A stretch of DNA of 64,000 bases from Catellatospora vulcania (lineage in GTDB: Bacteria > Actinomycetota > Actinomycetes > Mycobacteriales > Micromonosporaceae). The stretch is taken from contig NZ_ML769305.1 in NCBI RefSeq assembly GCF_009720385.1, positions 204,208 through 268,207 on the forward strand. The letters run 5' to 3'. Positions 9,798-51,020 of this stretch are shown in pieces. A model generated the notes under the pieces. It searched no databases, was not told the origin of the DNA, and saw nothing but the letters and a program-made list of their open reading frames with translations. A program made the position numbers and the translations under genes. The first letter of the stretch is position 1. Every line of letters begins with the position of its first letter.

Positions 9798-10535
9798 TCA
9801 GAGCAGGCGGCTGCGGCCCCAGCCGCGGTTCATGCGCCAGGCGGCGTACAGGCCTGCGGCGAGCGCGACGAGCAGCAGCACACCGACGCCGCGCAGCACG
9901 GCGCCCGTGTCACCGGCCGTCGCGCCGGACAGCGCCCGCAGCGCCCAGTATCCCGGCGACGCGGGCGCGATCGTCCGCGCCCAGCCGGGCAGCAGCGACA
10001 GTGGCACCATCGCGCCGCCGAGCGTGGACAGCAGCAGCGCGCCGAGGTCGTTGACCGCGCCGAGCTCGCTGTGGCTGCGTACCGTCACCGCCGCGGCGGC
10101 GCCGAGCAGCAGCAGCGTGACCGCCCAGGCCAGCCCCGCCAGCGCGAGCAGGTCCGGGCGGGCCACCCGCAGGCCGAGCGCGACGACGCCGTACCCGAGC
10201 ACCACCGCCTGCTGCGCCAGCAGCACCCCGCCGAGCGCGACCGCCTTTCCGGCCAGGATCTGCCACGCCGACGCGGGCGTGGCCCGCAGCCGGTCCAGGG
10301 TGTGCCAGGAGCGCTCGGTGAGCAGCGAGCCGCCGACGATGGACAGCCCCAGCAGCGAGAACAGCACCAGCATGCCGGTGACCGCGTGGGTGGTGCCCTG
10401 GTCGCCGATGGCGGCGCGGTAGAGCGGGCGCAGCACGGTGATCATCACGAGCGGCATGCCGATGCGGCTGATCACCGCGCCGGGCTCGGCCGCCAGCAGG
10501 GCCAGGTTGATCCGGACGAGGGCGAGGCTACGCAT
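9798..10535 (-). CDS. ABC-2 type transporter permease
   Basis: A 245-residue protein with about six membrane segments and the ABC-2 permease hallmark LTERSWHTLDRLRATP in the loop after the second segment. It starts at 10535 inside the 3' end of the ATPase gene (8-bp overlap), so the two are translationally coupled and should form one exporter. The divergent TetR gene next to the operon suggests drug or metabolite efflux induced by its substrate (inference). Confidence 0.87.
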   Translation of the reverse strand: MRSLALVRINLALLAAEPGAVISRIGMPLVMITVLRPLYRAAIGDQGTTHAVTGMLVLFSLLGLSIVGGSLLTERSWHTLDRLRATPASAWQILAGKAVALGGVLLAQQAVVLGYGVVALGLRVARPDLLALAGLAWAVTLLLLGAAAAVTVRSHSELGAVNDLGALLLSTLGGAMVPLSLLPGWARTIAPASPGYWALRALSGATAGDTGAVLRGVGVLLLVALAAGLYAAWRMNRGWGRSRLL

Positions 10536-11232
10536 GGTCGGCCGCCAGGGCGTGGTAGAGGTCGTCGAGGGTCTCGTGCCCGGCGAGCAGCTCGCCCTGG
10601 CTGCCGCGGCTGATGACCCGCCCGGCCCGGCAGACCGCGAGCGTGGCCCCGAGGTCGGCCAGCTCGGGCAGGTAGTGGGTCGTGTACAGCACGGCCGCGC
10701 CGTCGGCGGCGTGGGCGCGTACGAGTTGGAGCAGTGCGGCGCGGGTGCCGGGGTCGGCGCCGGTGGTGGGCTCGTCGAGCAGCAGCAGCGCGGGGCGGTG
10801 CAGCATCGCGGTCGCGGCCTGGGCGCGCCGGCGCTGTCCGCCGGAGAGCAGCCCGACGGGCCGGCGCAGCACGTCGGTGAGGCCGAGCGCCTGCGTGGTG
10901 TCGTCGACCGCCTGCCGCAGGGCGCGGCCGCGCAGCCCGGCGAGCGCCCCGAACAGGCGCAGGTTGCGTTCGACGGTCACGGACAGGTACAGCGCGATCT
11001 CCTGCGGGGCGACGCCGATCAGGTGGCGGGCGCGGGCCGGCGGCAGGCCGCCCACGGTCACCGTGCCCTCGTCCGGGCGGGTCAGCCCCGTGACGATCTC
11101 CACGAAGGTGCTCTTGCCCGCGCCGTTGTGGCCGATCAGGCCGCAGATCTCGCCGGGCGCGAGGGTGAGGTCGAAGCCGTCGAGGGCGGTGACCGGGCCG
11201 TACGCCTTGCGCACCCCCGACGCGTGCAGCAC
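10528..11232 (-). CDS. ABC transporter ATP-binding protein
   Basis: A 234-residue nucleotide-binding subunit with Walker A GHNGAGKST, signature LLSGGQRRR, Walker B LLLLDEPTTGADP and H-loop YTTHYLPEL. It closely resembles ATPases of ABC-2 drug or antibiotic exporters (DrrA/CcmA group). The GTG start at 11232 is fixed by AGGAGG 6 nt upstream. It precedes and overlaps the permease gene and is divergent from tetR across a 48-bp gap that is mostly operator. Confidence 0.9.
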   Translation of the reverse strand: MLHASGVRKAYGPVTALDGFDLTLAPGEICGLIGHNGAGKSTFVEIVTGLTRPDEGTVTVGGLPPARARHLIGVAPQEIALYLSVTVERNLRLFGALAGLRGRALRQAVDDTTQALGLTDVLRRPVGLLSGGQRRRAQAATAMLHRPALLLLDEPTTGADPGTRAALLQLVRAHAADGAAVLYTTHYLPELADLGATLAVCRAGRVISRGSQGELLAGHETLDDLYHALAADHA

Positions 11233-11280: not shown

Positions 11281-11946
11281 ATGGCGGAACAGGGTGTCGA
11301 GGCCCGGCGGCGGGAGATCCTGACCGCCGCGCTGGCGCTGGCCGACGAACGCGGCCTGGACGCGCTGTCCATGCGCGCGGTCGCGGCAAGGGTCGGCGTG
11401 ACGCCGATGGCGCTGTATCCCCACGTCGGCAACAAGGACGCGCTGCTCGACGGCCTGGTCGACCTGCTGCTGGCCGAACTGCTGCCCGCCGCGCGCACGG
11501 CCGGGCCGTGGCACGAGCGGTTGCGCGCCATCGCCCACGCGGGCCGCGCACTCGCCCACCGGCACCCCGCCGCCTATCCCCTGCTGCTGTCGCGCCCCGC
11601 CGTCACACCGGACGCGGTGCGCCTGGTGGACGCGCTCTACCGGGCGCTGCTGGACGCGGGCGTGCCCGCGGCGCAGGTGCCCCGGCTGGAGCGGCTGGTC
11701 TCGACCTACGTGCTCGGCTACGCGATCGGCGAGATCACCGGCCGCTTCGCGCCGGCCGATCCACGCCGGCACGCACGGGCCACGGCCGCCGGTGGCGCGG
11801 CGCCCGCACATCAAGAGCTTTCGGGGGTACTGGCACAGCCCCCCGACTGGGATGCCGAGTTCGCCGCAGGCCTCGACGACCTGATGCACGTCATCACGGG
11901 CCACGTCCCGTCGGCGGAATCCGCTCGTCGACTGTCCAACCACTGA
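11281..11946 (+). CDS. TetR-family transcriptional repressor
   Basis: A 221-residue protein with an N-terminal TetR helix-turn-helix: ILTAALALADERGLDALSMRAVA, then VGVTPMALYPHVGNKDALLDGLVD (residues about 13-60). The C-terminal domain looks like TetR_C, a ligand-binding and dimer region. It is divergent from the two-gene ABC exporter, with a repeated palindromic operator directly upstream, so it probably represses both itself and the exporter. The inducer is unknown. A dispersed repeat element follows the stop codon. Confidence 0.88.
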   Translation: MAEQGVEARRREILTAALALADERGLDALSMRAVAARVGVTPMALYPHVGNKDALLDGLVDLLLAELLPAARTAGPWHERLRAIAHAGRALAHRHPAAYPLLLSRPAVTPDAVRLVDALYRALLDAGVPAAQVPRLERLVSTYVLGYAIGEITGRFAPADPRRHARATAAGGAAPAHQELSGVLAQPPDWDAEFAAGLDDLMHVITGHVPSAESARRLSNH

Positions 11947-11966: not shown

Positions 11967-12022
11967 AGCGTTAGGAAGGTGCCCTTCCTCTACGAATAGC
12001 GATATGAAGGTGCCCCTCCTTT
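11967..12022. repeat. Dispersed palindromic repeat, GAAGGTGCCCTTC family (copy 1)
   Basis: Two near-palindromic modules, GGAAGGTGCCCTTCC (about 11974-11988) and GAAGGTGCCCCTCC (about 12006-12019), flank a spacer containing CTACGAATAGCGATA. The reverse complement closely matches the element at 50966-51020, including the spacer. Located between tetR and the helicase-nuclease gene. Confidence 0.65.
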
Positions 12023-12068
12023 CCCAAGGGTGCTTGGCGGGGGTGCGCGAGTCTGCCATCGTTGGGCC

Positions 12069-15000
12069 GTGACCGTGTCGGAGAGCGTCCCGCAGCAACC
12101 GCAGCCGTCCCATGTCGCGCTCGCCACCAGGCGGTGGGCGGATGCGCTGGTGGACGACTCCGGGCGCAACCAGCTGGCGTACTACCGCGATCTGCGGGCC
12201 GGCACGCTGCGGTTGGACACCGCGCAACCGGTGGCGGTGACGGCGCTGACGGCCGGGCGCACCGTGACGCTGCGTCAGCTGTTTCCGGACGACGTCGCGC
12301 ATGCCGATGCGATGCGCCGGGCGCGGACCATCCGGACCCGGATGCGCACGCTCGCCGAGGAGCGCGGCGTCGACGTCGGCTACCTGGCCAGCGGGATCGC
12401 GAGCTGGTGGGAGTCGGATCGCACGCCGCGCTCGCCGGTGCTGCTGCACCGGCTGACGGTGCGGACCACGTCGGCGGCCGAGACCGACTTCGCGCTGACG
12501 CTCGATCCGGAGCCGACGGTCAACCCGGTGCTGCTGTTCAAGCTGTTCAAGGAGCACCGCCTCGACCTCGACCCGGAGACGCTGCTCGACGCGCTGCCGG
12601 AGGGCCCCTACGATCCGCTGCCGCTGTTCGAGCAGCTGGCCAAGGCGGCGCAGGACGTGCGCGGCTTCACGGTCAGCCCGGAGCTGCTGGTGGGCACGTT
12701 CCTGTACGAGAAGCTGCCCATGGTCGCCGACATCACCGAGCACAGCGAGCTGCTGGAGAGCAGCGAGGTGATCGCCGCGCTGGCGGGCGACCCGCGGGCG
12801 CTGAGCGAGCTGTACGCCACCGCCCCGGTCGAACCCGACGCGCCGGACCGGCTGCTGCCGGGCGACGAGTTCCTGGTGCTGGACGCCGACTCGTCGCAGA
12901 GCTACGCGGTCAACGCCGCGGTCGCCGGGCACCACCTGGTGGTCAAGGGGCCGCCGGGGACGGGCAAGAGCCAGACCATCGCCAACATGATCATGGCGTT
13001 GGCGGCCCGGGGCCGCACGGCCCTGTTCGTCGCGGAGAAGCGCGCCGCCATCGACGCGGTGCTCGACCGGCTGAACCAGGTCGGTCTCGACGACCTGGTG
13101 CAGAACCTGCACGGCGACCAGAGCAGCCGCCGCGAGCTGGCCCGCGCGCTGGACTCGCGGCTGCAGCGGGCCCGGCACGAGACCCGGCCGACCACCGAGG
13201 ACACCGACCGCAGCCTGGTCGACACGCGCGCCGCGCTGTCGCGCCACCACGCGGCGCTGCACCACCGGCACGACCCGTGGGGCCTGTCCATGTTCGAGCT
13301 GCAGTCGCGGCTGCTGGGCGTCAGCCCCGCGGACATGACTCCGCAGCGCTGGTCCGGCGACGACCTGGTCCGCCTCGACGCCCCGACCGCGGCGCGGCTG
13401 CGCGCCTCGGTGACGGAGCTGGCGCAGCTCGGCGCGTTCGACCCCGAGCCCGGCCCGGGACCGTGGGTCCGCTCGACCGTGCCTGACCGGACCACCGCGC
13501 AGCTGGCGTACACGCTGGCCGGGCAGGCCGCGACGACGCTGGCTCCGGCCCGTCAGCAGCTCACCGCGCTGGCCGCGCAGCTGGGCCTGTCCGTGCCGGG
13601 CACGTTGAGTTCGGCGCAGAAGATGGCCGCCCTGCTGTCCGAGGTGGACACCACGCTGCGGCGGCTGCGGCCGGAGGCTTACACCGCCGACCTCGCCGCC
13701 TGGATCACCGCGTCGGCGACCGGCCCGGAGCGCGGCAGCATGGGCTTCTGGCAGCGGCGCAAGATGCTCAAGCAGATCCGGGCGCACTGGATCGCGCCCG
13801 GCCGCCCCAGCACCGCCGAGCTGCACGAGGCCGCCGTCGCCGCGGCCGACGAGCTGGCCCGCTGGCGCGTGGTGAGCCGCGACGGGCAGCCGCCGCGCAC
13901 CAGCCCGTCGGCCGCCGCCTCGCTGGCGGTGTTCGCCGAGTTCACCGGCGCGCTGGAGTCGCTGCGCGGCTACGTGCCGATCGACAACGACGACCTGACC
14001 CTGCTGCAGCCGGAGCTGGACCGGCTCGCCGGCGACCAGGCCGACCTGCTGCGCACCGCCCGGCGCAACGAGCTGGCCGCAGGCCTGGTGGACTGGCGCG
14101 CCCGGCGGCTGCTGGACGAGCTGGCGGCCCGCGGCGTCGGCGGTGACACGGCCCGTGCCGGGGCCGCGTTCGACCACGCATGGCTCAGTTCGGTGCTGGA
14201 GCACGTGCGCTTCACCGACGAGCACCTGTCGGCGTTCCACGGGGCTGCCCTGCACGCGGCGGTGACCGAGTTCCACACCGCCGACGCCGCGCACATCACC
14301 GCGGCCGCGCAGCGGGTGCGGCACCTGGCCGCCCGAAACCTGATGGCGGTGCTCGACGAGTTCCCCGAGCAGCAGCAACTGGTCCGCCGGGAGGCCGCCA
14401 AGAAGGCCCGGCACCTGCCGGTGCGGCGGCTGTTCGAGCAGGCCCCGGACGCGCTCACCGCGCTCAAGCCGTGCTGGGCGATGAGCCCGCTGCTGGTCAG
14501 CCAGGTGCTGCCGGCCCGGGTGCTGTTCGACGTGGTCATCTTCGACGAGGCCAGCCAGGTCGAGCCGGTCGACGGGGTGCCCGCGATCATGCGCGGCCGC
14601 CAGGTCGTGGTGGCCGGCGACGAGCACCAGCTGCCGCCGACGAACTTCTTCCAGCGCGCCGACGGCGACAGCGACACCCCCGACGACGGCACCGCGCTCG
14701 GCGACGACGTCGAGTCGCTGCTGCAGGCGTTCGCGCACACCCTGCCACTGCCGCAGGTGCGGCACCTGGCCTGGCACTACCGCAGCCGCGACGAGCGGCT
14801 CATCGCGTTCTCGGACCGGCACGTGTACGCCCCGAACGGCAACGCGCTGACCACGTTCCCGGGCGCGGACGCCGGGGACTGCATCAGCCACGTGCTGGTC
14901 ACCGGCGAGGCCGACCCGGACGCCTCCGCCGAGAGCGGCAGCGCCGAGGTGCGCCGGGTGGTGGAGCTGATCCTCGCGCACGCAGCAGGGCGGCCCGCCG

Positions 15001-16055
15001 AGTCGCTGGGCGTCATCACCATGGGCATCACCCACGCCGAGCGCGTCGACGCCGCGCTGCGCCGCGCCCTGGCCACCCGCCCGGAGCTGGAGCCGTACTT
15101 CTCCGAGCACGGGCACGAGCCGTTCTTCGTCAAGAACATCGAGCGGGTGCAAGGCGACGAGCGCGACGCGGTGATCCTGACCATCGGCTACCCGAAGGGC
15201 CTGGACGGGCGGATGCTCTACCGCTTCGGGCCGTTGAACACCAAGGGCGGGCACCGGCGGCTCAACGTGGCCATCACCCGGGCCCGCCGCCGGATGACCG
15301 TGGTCAGCTCGTTCACCCACCTGGACATGGATCCGCAGCGGCTGCGCGCCGAGGGCGCGGTCATGCTGCGCGACTTCCTCGCGTACGCCTCCTCCGGCGG
15401 CCGCCGCGAGACCCTGGCTACGACGACCTCCCCGGCGCTGAACCCGTTCGAGGCCGACGTGCTGGCCAAGCTCACCGCGGCGGGCATCCCGCTGGTGGTG
15501 CAGCACGGCGTGGGCGGGCACCGCATCGACTTCGCGGCCACCCACCCCGACGACCCGGAGCGGCTGGTGCTGGCGATCGAGGCCGACGGGGCGTCCTATC
15601 ACGCCTCGCCGACGGTGCGCGACCGCGACCGGCTGCGCCAGCAGCACCTGGAACGGCTGGGCTGGCGCTTCCACCGGATCTGGTCCACCGACTGGATGCG
15701 CCAGCGCGAGGTCGAGATCGCCAAGGCACGGGCCGTGTACGACCTCGCGGTGTCGGAGTCGGCGGGGCTGCCGATGGACACCGTCGCCGAGGGCGTGACC
15801 CTGCGGCTGCCCTCGGCGACCCCGCGCAGCCTGCCCAAACCCGAGCTGCCGCCGGCCACGCAGATCACCGAGGTGCCGCGGCAGACGCTGGTGGACCTGG
15901 TCCGCTGGATCGAGAGCGACGGCCTCAACCGCACCGAGGACGAGGTCGTCGCCGAAGCCACCACGGAGCTGGGCTTCGCCCGCCGCGGGCCGCGCATCAC
16001 CGAGACGCTGCGCCAGGTCCGCCGCGAGACGATCGAGGGCGGCGCTACTTCTTGA
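12069..16055 (+). CDS. DUF4011 / superfamily 1 helicase / REase-fold nuclease protein (candidate phage-defence protein)
   Basis: A 1,328-residue multidomain protein. The N-terminal region has the DUF4011 pattern GRNQLAYYRDLRAGTLRL. It is followed by a split SF1 helicase: Walker A KGPPGTGKSQT near residue 298, motif II FDEASQ near 825, motif III GDEHQLPPT near 850, WHYRSRDE near 900, RVQGDERD near 1026 and NVAITRARRR near 1066. A Vsr/MTES_1575-like nuclease follows (RIDFA near 1152, AIEADGASYH near 1171, RDRDRLRQQHLERLGW, RIWSTDWM), then a winged-helix-like tail. DUF4011-helicase-Vsr proteins have been reported as anti-phage systems (Hhe), but this one is untested. The GTG start at 12069 lies 6 nt after CATCGT; earlier starts are possible. 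The 3' end overlaps the convergent NUDIX gene by 11 bp. Confidence 0.85.
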   Translation: MTVSESVPQQPQPSHVALATRRWADALVDDSGRNQLAYYRDLRAGTLRLDTAQPVAVTALTAGRTVTLRQLFPDDVAHADAMRRARTIRTRMRTLAEERGVDVGYLASGIASWWESDRTPRSPVLLHRLTVRTTSAAETDFALTLDPEPTVNPVLLFKLFKEHRLDLDPETLLDALPEGPYDPLPLFEQLAKAAQDVRGFTVSPELLVGTFLYEKLPMVADITEHSELLESSEVIAALAGDPRALSELYATAPVEPDAPDRLLPGDEFLVLDADSSQSYAVNAAVAGHHLVVKGPPGTGKSQTIANMIMALAARGRTALFVAEKRAAIDAVLDRLNQVGLDDLVQNLHGDQSSRRELARALDSRLQRARHETRPTTEDTDRSLVDTRAALSRHHAALHHRHDPWGLSMFELQSRLLGVSPADMTPQRWSGDDLVRLDAPTAARLRASVTELAQLGAFDPEPGPGPWVRSTVPDRTTAQLAYTLAGQAATTLAPARQQLTALAAQLGLSVPGTLSSAQKMAALLSEVDTTLRRLRPEAYTADLAAWITASATGPERGSMGFWQRRKMLKQIRAHWIAPGRPSTAELHEAAVAAADELARWRVVSRDGQPPRTSPSAAASLAVFAEFTGALESLRGYVPIDNDDLTLLQPELDRLAGDQADLLRTARRNELAAGLVDWRARRLLDELAARGVGGDTARAGAAFDHAWLSSVLEHVRFTDEHLSAFHGAALHAAVTEFHTADAAHITAAAQRVRHLAARNLMAVLDEFPEQQQLVRREAAKKARHLPVRRLFEQAPDALTALKPCWAMSPLLVSQVLPARVLFDVVIFDEASQVEPVDGVPAIMRGRQVVVAGDEHQLPPTNFFQRADGDSDTPDDGTALGDDVESLLQAFAHTLPLPQVRHLAWHYRSRDERLIAFSDRHVYAPNGNALTTFPGADAGDCISHVLVTGEADPDASAESGSAEVRRVVELILAHAAGRPAESLGVITMGITHAERVDAALRRALATRPELEPYFSEHGHEPFFVKNIERVQGDERDAVILTIGYPKGLDGRMLYRFGPLNTKGGHRRLNVAITRARRRMTVVSSFTHLDMDPQRLRAEGAVMLRDFLAYASSGGRRETLATTTSPALNPFEADVLAKLTAAGIPLVVQHGVGGHRIDFAATHPDDPERLVLAIEADGASYHASPTVRDRDRLRQQHLERLGWRFHRIWSTDWMRQREVEIAKARAVYDLAVSESAGLPMDTVAEGVTLRLPSATPRSLPKPELPPATQITEVPRQTLVDLVRWIESDGLNRTEDEVVAEATTELGFARRGPRITETLRQVRRETIEGGATS

Positions 16056-16491
16056 CGGCGGTGCGCAGCACGTCGCGCACCGCGTCGAGCATCGGGATCT
16101 GGTCCAGTTCGGCCGACGAGTGCCAGCTGGGTTCGACCATGATGCCGTCGGGCTGCGGGCGCAGGTCGCCGCCGAGCACCGTCACGCCGTAGAGCATGAA
16201 CACGCCGTGGAAGTCGATGCCACCGTTCAGCTGACGGTGGTCGGAGCCGACCTCCAGCAGCGCGTCGACGCGCACCTCCAGGCCCGTGGTCTCGGCGAAC
16301 TCGCGCACCACCGTCTCGGCCGGGTGCTCGCCGTGCTCGATGGTGCCGCCGGGCGGCATCCACTTGCCGAGGTCCCCGTGGGCGCTGCGGCCGATCTGCA
16401 CGAGCAGCACGGTGTCACCCTCGCGCGCCAACCCGTACGCCGAGACCCGCTGCCACTGCCTGACCATCGTCACGTTGAGAAAGCCTGCCAT
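16045..16491 (-). CDS. NUDIX hydrolase with a variant Nudix box
   Basis: A 148-residue protein of NUDIX length. The box reads GGTIEHGEHPAETVV then REFAETTGLEV (about residues 47-69): the first Glu and the REF pair are kept, but the usual EE pair of the REuxEExGu motif is ET, so one metal ligand position differs. It could still be active, since the first Glu of the pair is the main base in many members. ATG 16491 is chosen; a GTG at 16509 would add six residues. It overlaps the helicase-nuclease gene tail to tail by 11 bp. Substrate unknown. Confidence 0.75.
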   Translation of the reverse strand: MAGFLNVTMVRQWQRVSAYGLAREGDTVLLVQIGRSAHGDLGKWMPPGGTIEHGEHPAETVVREFAETTGLEVRVDALLEVGSDHRQLNGGIDFHGVFMLYGVTVLGGDLRPQPDGIMVEPSWHSSAELDQIPMLDAVRDVLRTAVKK

Positions 16492-16818
16492 GTTCTCGCG
16501 CGGTCGCACAGATGGTCGAACCGCTGATTCGCCACGCAGAGCGCTTCTCCCAGCTCACACCTGCCACATCTGGGCGGGCTTGATCGCGGTTTCCGGTCGG
16601 AAAGTGTGGCCTGCCCGCATTTCCTGACCGGAAACAGCGATCACCACGCCCCCACGAGCGGCACGCGGACGGCGGCGGACTCCCCCGGCGCGGGTGCGCC
16701 GCCGGGTGGACGCGCCGCGAACAGCAGGTTGACCGCACGATTTCACCGGTTCGGGGGAGGTGAAGTCACCCTTTAGACGAAACCGCAATGACATATGCCA
16801 CCGCCTATGCTCGCGGTC
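16492..16818. other. Intergenic region dominated by a long hairpin
   Basis: About 327 bp without a convincing gene. It lies between the divergent starts of the NUDIX and Imm51-like genes. It contains the 16582-16642 inverted repeat and, near its right end, the -10-like TATGCT (16806-16811) that fits the leaderless start at 16819. Confidence 0.55.
16582..16642. repeat. Long imperfect inverted repeat (hairpin)
   Basis: The left arm (16582-16603) carries GATCGC and GTTTCCGGTC then GGAAA; the right arm (16620-16642) is its reverse complement apart from one mismatch and one extra base. The loop is 16 nt. About 21 of 22 positions pair. It sits more than 170 bp upstream of the next gene, so it is not an obvious terminator. 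It could be a REP-like or small non-autonomous element. Confidence 0.65.
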
Positions 16819-17166
16819 ATGGCACGTGACCCCGACTTCGACCCCGGCAAGCTGGTCGAGCACGACTCCGGTGAGTTCAGCCTGACCTTCGACGACTTCG
16901 ACGACTATGTGGACATCTTCGACGAGCAGGGCTGGCTCGGCAACGGCTACGCCTGGGAGGGCGTGGTGCAGGTGCTGCTGGCCGAACGCGCGCCGGAGGT
17001 GCTCGACCAGATCGAGTTCGACTCCGAGGCGGACCTGTTCTCGGTGCGCGCCGGCGACATCGAGCCGCTGGCGGAGGTGGCCGCCACCATCCGCGAGGCG
17101 GTCGTCGACCTCGACGTGCTGGCCGACGCCATCACCCGCGCCGAGGAACAGGGCCTGCTCGACTGA
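16819..17166 (+). CDS. Imm51-like immunity protein
   Basis: A small acidic protein of 115 residues. SLTFDDFDDYVDIFDEQGWLGNGYAWEGVVQVLL followed by IEFDSEADLFSV fits my recollection of immunity protein 51 (Imm51), a family that neutralises polymorphic or contact-dependent toxins. No toxin gene lies beside it, so it would be an orphan immunity gene, or the family assignment may be incomplete. ATG 16819 is supported by TATGCT 7 nt upstream (leaderless); an ATG at 16795 lies upstream of that box and is less likely. The next gene, an S66 peptidase, has its own -10 box. Confidence 0.6.
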   Translation: MARDPDFDPGKLVEHDSGEFSLTFDDFDDYVDIFDEQGWLGNGYAWEGVVQVLLAERAPEVLDQIEFDSEADLFSVRAGDIEPLAEVAATIREAVVDLDVLADAITRAEEQGLLD

Positions 17167-17207: not shown

Positions 17208-18248
17208 ATGGCCGACCTGACCTACCCGCCCAAGCCCCGCCCCGGTGACCGCATCGCGGTCCTGTCTCCGAGCGCGGGGCTGCCCGCGGTCTTCCCTGAC
17301 GTGTACGAGCTGGGCCTGTCCCGGCTGCGCGACGAGTTCGGGCTGGTCCCGGTGGAGTTCCCGACCACCCGCGCGGTGGCCGCCACCCCGCGGGAGCGGG
17401 CCCGCGACATCAACGCGGCCTTCGCCGACCCGTCCATCGCCGCGGTCATGGCCAGCATCGGCGGCGACGACCAGATCACCGTGCTGCGCCACCTCGACGA
17501 CGAGGTGATCCGGGCCAACCCCAAGCCCTTTTTCGGCTTCTCCGACAACACCAACCTGCTCAATCACCTGTTCGGCCTCGGCGTGGTCGGCTTTCACGGC
17601 GCGACGGTGATGGCCTGCCTGGCCCGCGGCGGCGCGATGCACCCGCTGTCGGCGAGCAGCCTGCGCGCGGCCCTGTTCACGCCGGGCTGGCACGAGCTGA
17701 CCGCCTCGGCCGACTACACCGACGAGCCGAACGACTGGGCGGACGCCTCCCTGCGCGACGTGCCGCCGCGGATGCGGCCTGCGGACGGCTGGGCGTGGGA
17801 GGGGCCGCAGCGGGTCGTGGAAGGGCCGCTGTGGGGCGGCTGCCTGGAGATCCTGTCCTGGCTGCTGCAGGCGGGCTTCGTCGCGCCACCGGAGCGCTTC
17901 GACGGGCACGTGCTGGTCCTGGAGACCTCCGAGGAGATGCCGAGCGCCGACGAGGTCTTCCGGACGCTGCGCAACATGGGCGAGCGCGGCATGCTGGGCC
18001 GCTTCGGCGCAGTGCTGGCCGGGCGGCCCAAGGCGTGGCACTTCGACCGGCGCAACACGGCCGGGCAGAAGGCCGCGTACCGGGCCGAGCAGCGCGACGC
18101 GGTCCGCCGGGCCGTGGCGGCGTACGCGCCGGACGCAGTGCTCGTGTTCGACCTGGACATCGGCCACACCGACCCGCAGCTGGTCCTGCCGATCGGCGGG
18201 GACGTGCGGGTCGACGGGGTGGCGCGGCGCATCAGCGTGCGCTACTGA
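17208..18248 (+). CDS. S66-family peptidase (LD-carboxypeptidase / MccF-like)
   Basis: A 346-residue serine peptidase of the S66 family, which includes LD-carboxypeptidases of peptidoglycan recycling and MccF, which inactivates microcin C. IAVLSPSAGLP opens the fold, IGGDDQITVLRHLD follows, and the nucleophile is expected at Ser112 in FFGFSDNTNL. WGGCLEIL supplies the likely Glu and DIGHTDP the likely His. Length and the DDQ loop look closer to MccF-like members than to LdcA (tentative). ATG 17208 follows TAGTTT (17196-17201) by 6 nt. The stop codon directly abuts that of the convergent MscS gene. Confidence 0.85.
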   Translation: MADLTYPPKPRPGDRIAVLSPSAGLPAVFPDVYELGLSRLRDEFGLVPVEFPTTRAVAATPRERARDINAAFADPSIAAVMASIGGDDQITVLRHLDDEVIRANPKPFFGFSDNTNLLNHLFGLGVVGFHGATVMACLARGGAMHPLSASSLRAALFTPGWHELTASADYTDEPNDWADASLRDVPPRMRPADGWAWEGPQRVVEGPLWGGCLEILSWLLQAGFVAPPERFDGHVLVLETSEEMPSADEVFRTLRNMGERGMLGRFGAVLAGRPKAWHFDRRNTAGQKAAYRAEQRDAVRRAVAAYAPDAVLVFDLDIGHTDPQLVLPIGGDVRVDGVARRISVRY

Positions 18249-50966: not shown

Positions 50967-51020
50967 GAAGGAAGGGCACCTTCTTATCGCTATGCGTAGA
51001 GGAAGGGCACCTTCTTAACG
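50966..51020. repeat. Dispersed palindromic repeat, GAAGGGCACCTTC family
   Basis: Two direct copies of GGAAGGGCACCTTCTTA (from about 50970 and 51001) flank a spacer containing TCGCTATGCGTAG. The first unit can also fold as AAGAAGG/CCTTCTT. The spacer matches that of the 11967 element in inverted orientation. Confidence 0.68.

Follow-up and report, generated by a model that had tools for sequence, protein, structure and literature searches.

The gene at positions 12069 to 16055 (forward strand) of a 64,000-nucleotide stretch of the genome of Catellatospora vulcania, a soil actinomycete (contig NZ_ML769305.1; hereafter the window), encodes a 1,328-residue protein that combines a DUF4011-type domain, a superfamily 1 (SF1) helicase and a Vsr-like nuclease. 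With a probability of roughly one half, we interpret it as a single-chain, ATP-driven DNA-surveillance helicase-nuclease that is resident on the Catellatospora chromosome and most likely destroys invading phage or plasmid DNA. The gene itself, its architecture, the conservation of its catalytic residues, its genus-wide synteny and the purifying selection acting on it are directly established. A defensive role is favoured because the gene is patchily distributed outside the genus and has kinship with the anti-phage proteins Hhe and ProA, while a resident role, possibly including repair, is favoured because the gene occupies a fixed place and the family tree is clustered by taxon.

The frame runs through 1,328 codons without an internal stop, and the gene is confirmed as real and intact. 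The start region is kept in close relatives: five of the ten other Catellatospora genomes sampled have an almost identical sequence across the GTG start and the preceding ∼40 nt, and G002, G007 and G008 likewise have a GTG in roughly this position. The conserved stretch (about 12029 to 12069) abuts the GTG in the five congeners and displays no obvious ribosome site; the transcript is perhaps leaderless. The N-terminal DUF4011-type domain occupies residues ∼16–250 of the model (12114–12818). Its Pfam match is partial, extending over residues 75–159 (5e-8; profile positions 71–158 of 158). Because W23, D29 and N34, present in 60, 58 and 61 of 61 aligned family members, respectively, all lie upstream of this match, the domain looks whole but divergent. 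No match to HEPN or transglutaminase families was found in the protein with Pfam at E 0.1.

The motor is divided into two parts, matched by AAA_11 and AAA_12 in Pfam. The first (residues 265–385; 12861–13223) contains the Walker A sequence GPPGTGKSQT at 12948–12977, with K300, and the second (residues 801–1095; 14469–15353) carries DEASQ (D826/E827), HYRS (R905), VQGDERD (Q1028) and NVAITRAR (R1071). Between them lies a mostly helical insertion or linker of ∼415 residues (386–800; 13224–14468) that belongs to no Pfam family. An AlphaFold2 model of residues 1–1195, built from alignments of family members, has a mean predicted local distance difference test score (pLDDT) of 87.9. Its fold neighbours are SETX/Sen1, the spliceosomal Aquarius, IGHMBP2, UPF1 and Dna2, together with AddAB; whole-model template modelling scores were low (0.16–0.34 among the rows shown), as it is mainly the motor that aligns. 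Sequence alone gives a match to SMUBP-2 at 1e-12. The motor is a UPF1/SMUBP2-like SF1 (SF1B) helicase, for which the fold neighbours suggest 5′ to 3′ polarity. The combination of a DUF4011 N-terminus and an SF1 helicase in one chain, proposed in the initial annotation, is therefore borne out.

The nuclease (residues 1127–1220; 15447–15728) is matched by the Pfam family MTES_1575 at 2e-29, with 102 bits against a cut-off of 38. The model of residues 1090–1328 (mean pLDDT 83.8) finds I-Bth0305I, NGO0050, TnsA and Vsr as fold neighbours in the PDB (best E 0.0023, probability 1.00); no PDB neighbour was returned at E≤0.001. On sequence and model the enzyme is a predicted member of the MTES_1575 family, with a PD-(D/E)XK-type core in which D1154, E1171 and D1173 supply the D…ExD motif and R1184-D1185-R1186 the RDR motif. 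The Vsr/MTES_1575-like nuclease anticipated from the first inspection of the sequence is supported by the profile match, the conserved residues and the fold predicted by AlphaFold2 and the fold search. The winged-helix tail proposed at the same time finds no counterpart in the model, in which the C-terminal domain (residues ∼1271–1324; 15879–16040) consists of three helices and no strands, and so lacks a wing.

Conservation of these residues was assessed in a 61-row alignment. A wide scan with the patterns KGPPGTGK and LFVAEKRA yielded 434 confirmed relatives, of which the best 80 were kept; 51 of these, nine loci from genomes and the query were picked for length and diversity, the copy in G040, which bears a stop, being left out. 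D826, E827, R905, Q1028, R1071, D1173 and R1186 are present in all 61 members, and D1154 and E1171 each in 60. K300 is also invariant, largely by construction for 51 of the rows because one of the two patterns that found them covers a Walker A stretch. The checked motor and catalytic residues are intact in the window protein and its ten Catellatospora orthologues. These data argue against a chiefly non-enzymatic protein, a scaffold or regulator whose enzyme activities are dispensable, which for the window protein we consider very unlikely; the evidence that favours such a role comes from a sister lineage described below.

The initial annotation had linked the protein to the Hhe type of phage-defence genes. 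Among the PADLOC profiles the best match is a different one, PDC-S37 (838 bits, E 4e-252), in which we take the S to stand for single gene; two stretches align, the better being residues 637–1319, and Hhe comes second with 455 bits. By sequence, the protein is thus already catalogued as a candidate, as the name itself says, PDC being ‘phage defence candidate' (PMC11514479). A literature search returned no paper for the name PDC-S37 and, for ProA, no paper whose title concerns an anti-phage protein of that name. PDC-S37 matches the short-form members L070 and L091 likewise, but it does not separate the short form (∼1,330 residues), because its profile of 1,550 positions also matches proteins of 1,842–2,102 residues (854–923 bits). 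Membership of the two curated NCBIfam families is rejected. The Hhe model (NF042953) gives 577 bits against a cut-off of 2000, and the ProA model (NF058533) gives 808 bits against 1500, with a best stretch (616–1230) that is not full length. A positive control, the 2,009-residue L137 from another Micromonosporaceae genome, passed ProA over the full profile with 1,711 bits.

The relationship to both families is nevertheless evident from what aligns. With ProA the window protein shares the motor, the nuclease and much of the linker, although L137 has about 690 residues before the motor compared with about 264 here. Hhe, which in the literature is called ‘Gao Hhe', is an anti-phage protein named with DUF4011; its SF1 helicase and Vsr-like nuclease regions align, and the window protein indeed unites DUF4011, an SF1 helicase and a Vsr-like nuclease on a single chain, while being about 470 residues shorter than the Hhe model (1,797 positions). 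The giant MTES_1575-type proteins described in a 2013 paper on the HEPN superfamily (PMC3710099) combine an SF-I helicase, a Vsr restriction endonuclease and a C-terminal domain of the DNA-binding type, an arrangement held in common with the window protein. They additionally carry HEPN, transglutaminase and two winged helix-turn-helix domains, the first two of which have no Pfam match here. For the giants, the same text proposes that the C-terminal winged helix-turn-helix recognizes invading DNA independently of modification. The host genome also contains a second, stand-alone MTES_1575-like nuclease of 386 residues (L141; G000:C5:226800-228400), 49% identical in the nuclease domain, with a different RDR stretch and an N-terminus that reads as hydrophobic.

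Within Catellatospora the gene is full length in all ten other sampled genomes (74–96% identity; in two as two adjoining pieces). In each it adjoins a convergent NUDIX hydrolase gene (16045–16491, reverse strand, in the window; 90–97% identity), a neighbour already reported in the initial annotation and confirmed by Pfam. The 3′ ends of the two genes overlap by 11 nt in the window and in six of the ten congeners, and are separated by gaps of 4–17 nt in the other four. The NUDIX product is a possible functional partner, but the overlap by itself may be why the genes stay together. Nei-Gojobori analysis within the genus revealed purifying selection that is strongest in the motor and nuclease and weakest in the linker and tail. 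In the motor and nuclease the non-synonymous rate (dN) is well below the synonymous rate (dS), with values for the nuclease of 0.004 versus 0.177 against G004, and the insertion (residues 386–800) diverges faster than either. Ratios for distant pairs, such as 0.189/0.349 with G008, are likely too high because dS may be underestimated in a GC-rich, codon-biased genome.

Outside the genus the distribution is patchy. Relatives were sought in 60 genomes (the ten congeners, 26 from other genera of the taxonomic family and 24 from elsewhere in the order), scoring up to ten candidates per genome. A full-length short form was present in four of the 26 other-genus Micromonosporaceae (G019, G026 and G028 at 56–59% identity; G014 at 41%) and the gene in two of the 24 further genomes (G048, and G040 with an in-frame stop). 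An even draw of 60 genomes across the order, which overlaps the first sample, contained four full-length short forms in addition to that of the window (G095, G048, G040 and G063), along with a longer frame that matches only in part. As a housekeeping gene would be expected in nearly all genera of the family, and this one is patchy outside Catellatospora, it is no universal housekeeping gene. Orthology and synteny across relatives, named at the outset as part of a finding that would overturn the defence proposal, are thus seen within the genus (10/10) but not beyond it.

The short form is not a peculiarity of actinobacteria. In the 61-row alignment it occurs under nine phylum names (Actinomycetota, Acidobacteriota, Planctomycetota, Chloroflexota, Bacteroidota, Chlorobiota, Armatimonadota, Myxococcota and Bacillota), which were taken from record titles, many of them those of bins. 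Its modules measure about 260, 125, 420, 295 and 131 residues, followed by a tail of mostly about 100 residues that is shorter in some members. Trees were quick searches with support given by the Shimodaira-Hasegawa-like approximate likelihood ratio test (SH-aLRT) only. When 44 short forms were placed in a tree with nine other proteins, eight of the nine formed one clade (SH-aLRT 99, branch length 0.79); the ninth, from Actinomyces oris, has a very long branch there and elsewhere falls within the mscL lineage of short forms discussed below. The longer ProA/Hhe-like proteins thus form a clade apart, and, the tree being unrooted, the short forms are not necessarily monophyletic. To this extent the distinct shorter subgroup suggested at the outset stands, without its actinobacterial restriction. 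With the exception of Dactylosporangium and G014, the Micromonosporaceae members group in a single clade (99), with the Catellatospora clade nested inside it (99).

Searches of phage and plasmid records provide no support for an origin on either. One of 50,697 phage records contained a relative, at 30% identity, and each of the 429 plasmid records with relatives was below 60% identity, one of them covering 80% of the query. These data, together with the tree and the unchanged locus of the gene across the 11 Catellatospora genomes sampled, make it improbable that the gene is a typical mobile, single-gene cassette of a defence island, which would vary within the genus and lie among defence genes. 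Such a cassette would agree with PDC-S37 being a defence candidate by name, and with some distant members that lie near restriction-type genes: at L086 the genes after it encode Bro-N and a type III Res-like endonuclease, and at L039 it lies two genes from a ZorD/DpdE-like helicase. The proposal of an anti-phage candidate is therefore sustained by the PDC-S37 match and the kinship with Hhe and ProA, whereas a mobile defence gene is only partly supported in view of the fixed locus and the lack of a Pfam defence neighbour.

Several results weigh against a role in defence of the kind we favour. The gene is genus-core and position-fixed in the 11 sampled Catellatospora genomes, and Pfam identified no defence family among the ten neighbours scanned in the window. 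The family tree clusters by taxon, with 11 label changes compared with a minimum of 8 and a mean of 17.4 after shuffling (13 of the 61 rows are unlabelled). In a PADLOC scan of neighbours at 36 other loci, 117 families were matched among 143 proteins (of 179 chosen), with at most two members per family, compared with seven families, with up to six members, among 135 proteins of 20 arbitrary stretches; these are counts of families, which do not yield numbers of members and so give no measure of defence enrichment, and the control was not matched by phylum. In Pseudomonas aeruginosa a gene that shares the DUF4011 label is itself core and flanks a defence hotspot (PMC10250203).

An alternative is a genome-maintenance enzyme, comparable to Dna2 or AddAB, that processes stalled forks, flaps and broken ends of host DNA, the resemblance to Hhe and ProA then reflecting common ancestry of the motor. 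This reading is possible but appears less probable than defence. It would account for the same convergent NUDIX neighbour in 10/10 congeners, the clustering of the tree by taxon and the second lineage with a fixed place beside mscL, and Dna2 and AddAB are among the fold neighbours. In Skermania, genes for an ATP-dependent DNA ligase and a LigD-type primase-polymerase lie directly downstream of the helicase gene, and in Antrihabitans a ligase homologue lies next to it. By contrast, a full-length short form was not found in 22 of the 26 other-genus family genomes or in 56 of the 60 genomes of the order draw, so the gene is not needed for basic repair, and the strongest profile matches are to anti-phage models.

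Apart from the contexts that extend across a lineage, the only recurrent neighbour outside the genus is a gene of about 280 residues directly downstream of the helicase gene at L035, L036, L049 and L096; the L035 copy, which was scanned, has no Pfam match, and the product is a possible partner or effector. In six genomes examined outside Catellatospora, the best NUDIX homologue lies away from the gene, and the best carboxypeptidase homologue lies elsewhere in the genome.

For the surveillance helicase-nuclease we favour, the architecture suggests how the parts could cooperate. The DUF4011 domain and the helical insertion would place the UPF1-like motor on DNA that is single-stranded or aberrant, such as ends and replication intermediates. 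ATP-driven translocation, probably 5′ to 3′, would deliver the C-terminal Vsr-like nuclease to the DNA, and the nuclease would then cut what the motor had reached. The most likely benefit would be the destruction of invading phage or plasmid DNA. Comparable modes of working are found in Hachiman HamAB (PMC12278908), Druantia III DruE (PMC13192584) and AbpAB (PMC10732053), in which a helicase is coupled to a nuclease and engages single-stranded or aberrant DNA; the comparison is one of function only. In Hachiman the trigger for the helicase is a free single-stranded DNA end, which also activates the nuclease (PMC12278908), while AbpAB is activated either by a phage single-stranded-DNA-binding protein or when replication or repair is interrupted in the host (PMC10732053). 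Hachiman, Druantia III and AbpAB each comprise more than one protein, in contrast to the single chain encoded here.

The second lineage with a fixed place emerged among the best 80 of the 434 relatives. At 16 loci whose titles name Intrasporangiaceae (or its genera), Luteipulveratus or Micrococcales, an MscL-like gene lies one or two genes downstream in 13, and behind it SAF-domain-, phosphorylase-, antiporter- and cyclo-ligase-like genes recur at 10–12; these identities come from our own reading of the sequences and the A. oris annotation. The A. oris homologue (1,437 residues), whose record is filed as a 415-kb plasmid, is followed by mscL, SAF and cyclo-ligase genes in that order. When 79 genomes of the class were sampled, with up to eight candidates scored per genome, 13 including that of the window matched at 1e-60; the sample is biased to the mscL lineage because the query was L076. 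Nine short-type loci were read besides that of the window, of which L147 and L148 keep all checked motor residues and the other seven (L150–L156) do not. At L147, L151, L153 and L155 an MscL-like gene lies within about 1.5 kb; none was found at the other five.

In group f34 the gene is present in 4/4 genomes, with a Walker A of AAPGTGRTQT in three and APPGTGRTQT in one; the DEASQ, Q1028 and D1154 positions are altered in all four and R1071 in three. The A. oris homologue also lacks the motor motifs. The Walker A lysine is missing, along with other motor residues, from the eight motif-less members (L145:2194-6507 and L150–L156), which mostly retain one long frame, L150 carrying an in-frame stop and L156 being a partial match. 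Together with seven intact Intrasporangiaceae-type proteins they form one group (support 99), within which the branch dividing motif-less from intact rows has a support of 15, too weak for a single origin of the loss. Three congeneric f34 genes give dN/dS values of 0.037/0.187, 0.060/0.268 and 0.065/0.298, or about 0.2, so the motif-less members of this group appear, from these sequences, to be kept by selection. Both the eight degraded members and the f34 ratios would fit a chiefly non-enzymatic role; this is not extended to the window protein, in which the motifs are intact.

A broader interpretation is offered tentatively. Rather than being mainly mobile defence genes, the short-form DUF4011 helicase-nucleases may make up an ancient system of DNA surveillance in Actinomycetota, passed on for the most part vertically, that became position-fixed at least twice: next to NUDIX in Catellatospora, and next to mscL in Intrasporangiaceae as well as additional families. 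Within the mscL lineage, several families would have kept the long protein without the Walker A lysine, the Walker B DE and further residues. Purifying selection on it in at least one genus would point to a possible non-enzymatic core function of a protein that is catalogued as phage defence. The interpretation is weakened because mscL adjacency among the eight motif-less members covers four loci in two groups only (three of the four f34 genomes and A. oris), and because the wide scan could hardly detect members without an intact Walker A.

The ten neighbours scanned in the window, with gene calls from codon-bias scripts that leave starts and small genes approximate, comprise a PhoX phosphatase, an AAA/DUF5925 protein, an ABC transporter pair, a TetR regulator, the NUDIX hydrolase, Imm51, an S66 peptidase, a mechanosensitive channel and one protein without a match. 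Upstream lie the ABC-2 permease (9798–10535) and ABC ATPase (10528–11232), both on the reverse strand, and the TetR-family regulator (11281–11946, forward strand). A TetR homologue stands beside the gene in 6/10 congeners, but a TetR-helicase operon was rejected, as G001, G002 and G007 have no adjacent homologue and G006 has a short remnant. The genes first read as ‘immunity-like' resolve by Pfam into Imm51 (16807–17166, forward strand; a homologue nearby in 10/10 congeners) and S66 LD-carboxypeptidase (17208–18248, forward strand; a neighbour in 9/10), neither of which is, to our knowledge, a phage-defence family.

The palindrome thought to flank the gene exists, as an imperfect 63-nt repeat with 29-nt arms (16581–16643). 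It lies about 525 nt past the helicase-nuclease stop, beyond the NUDIX gene, and is one copy of a repeat dispersed in the genus, so it was rejected as part of the system. With both strands counted there are 68 matches in the host genome, 62 in G001, 13–25 in seven congeners and 1–2 in G005 and G009; none was found in ten sampled genomes of other genera, with up to 40 candidates scored per genome. Upstream of the gene, a short palindromic repeat (11971–11992) has a second copy at 50997–51018, two copies in the window compared with 0.00 expected in shuffles.

Profile matches and island context are the grounds on which single-gene helicase-nucleases are now being listed as defence systems. The window protein adds informative genus-core behaviour to an already catalogued candidate family: because a strong PDC-S37 match can be genus-core, position-fixed and without defence neighbours, the defence label needs testing. 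The most interesting outcome is the mscL sister lineage, met by following the family outside the window, whose motif-less proteins offer a direct test of a role for the family beyond DNA cutting.

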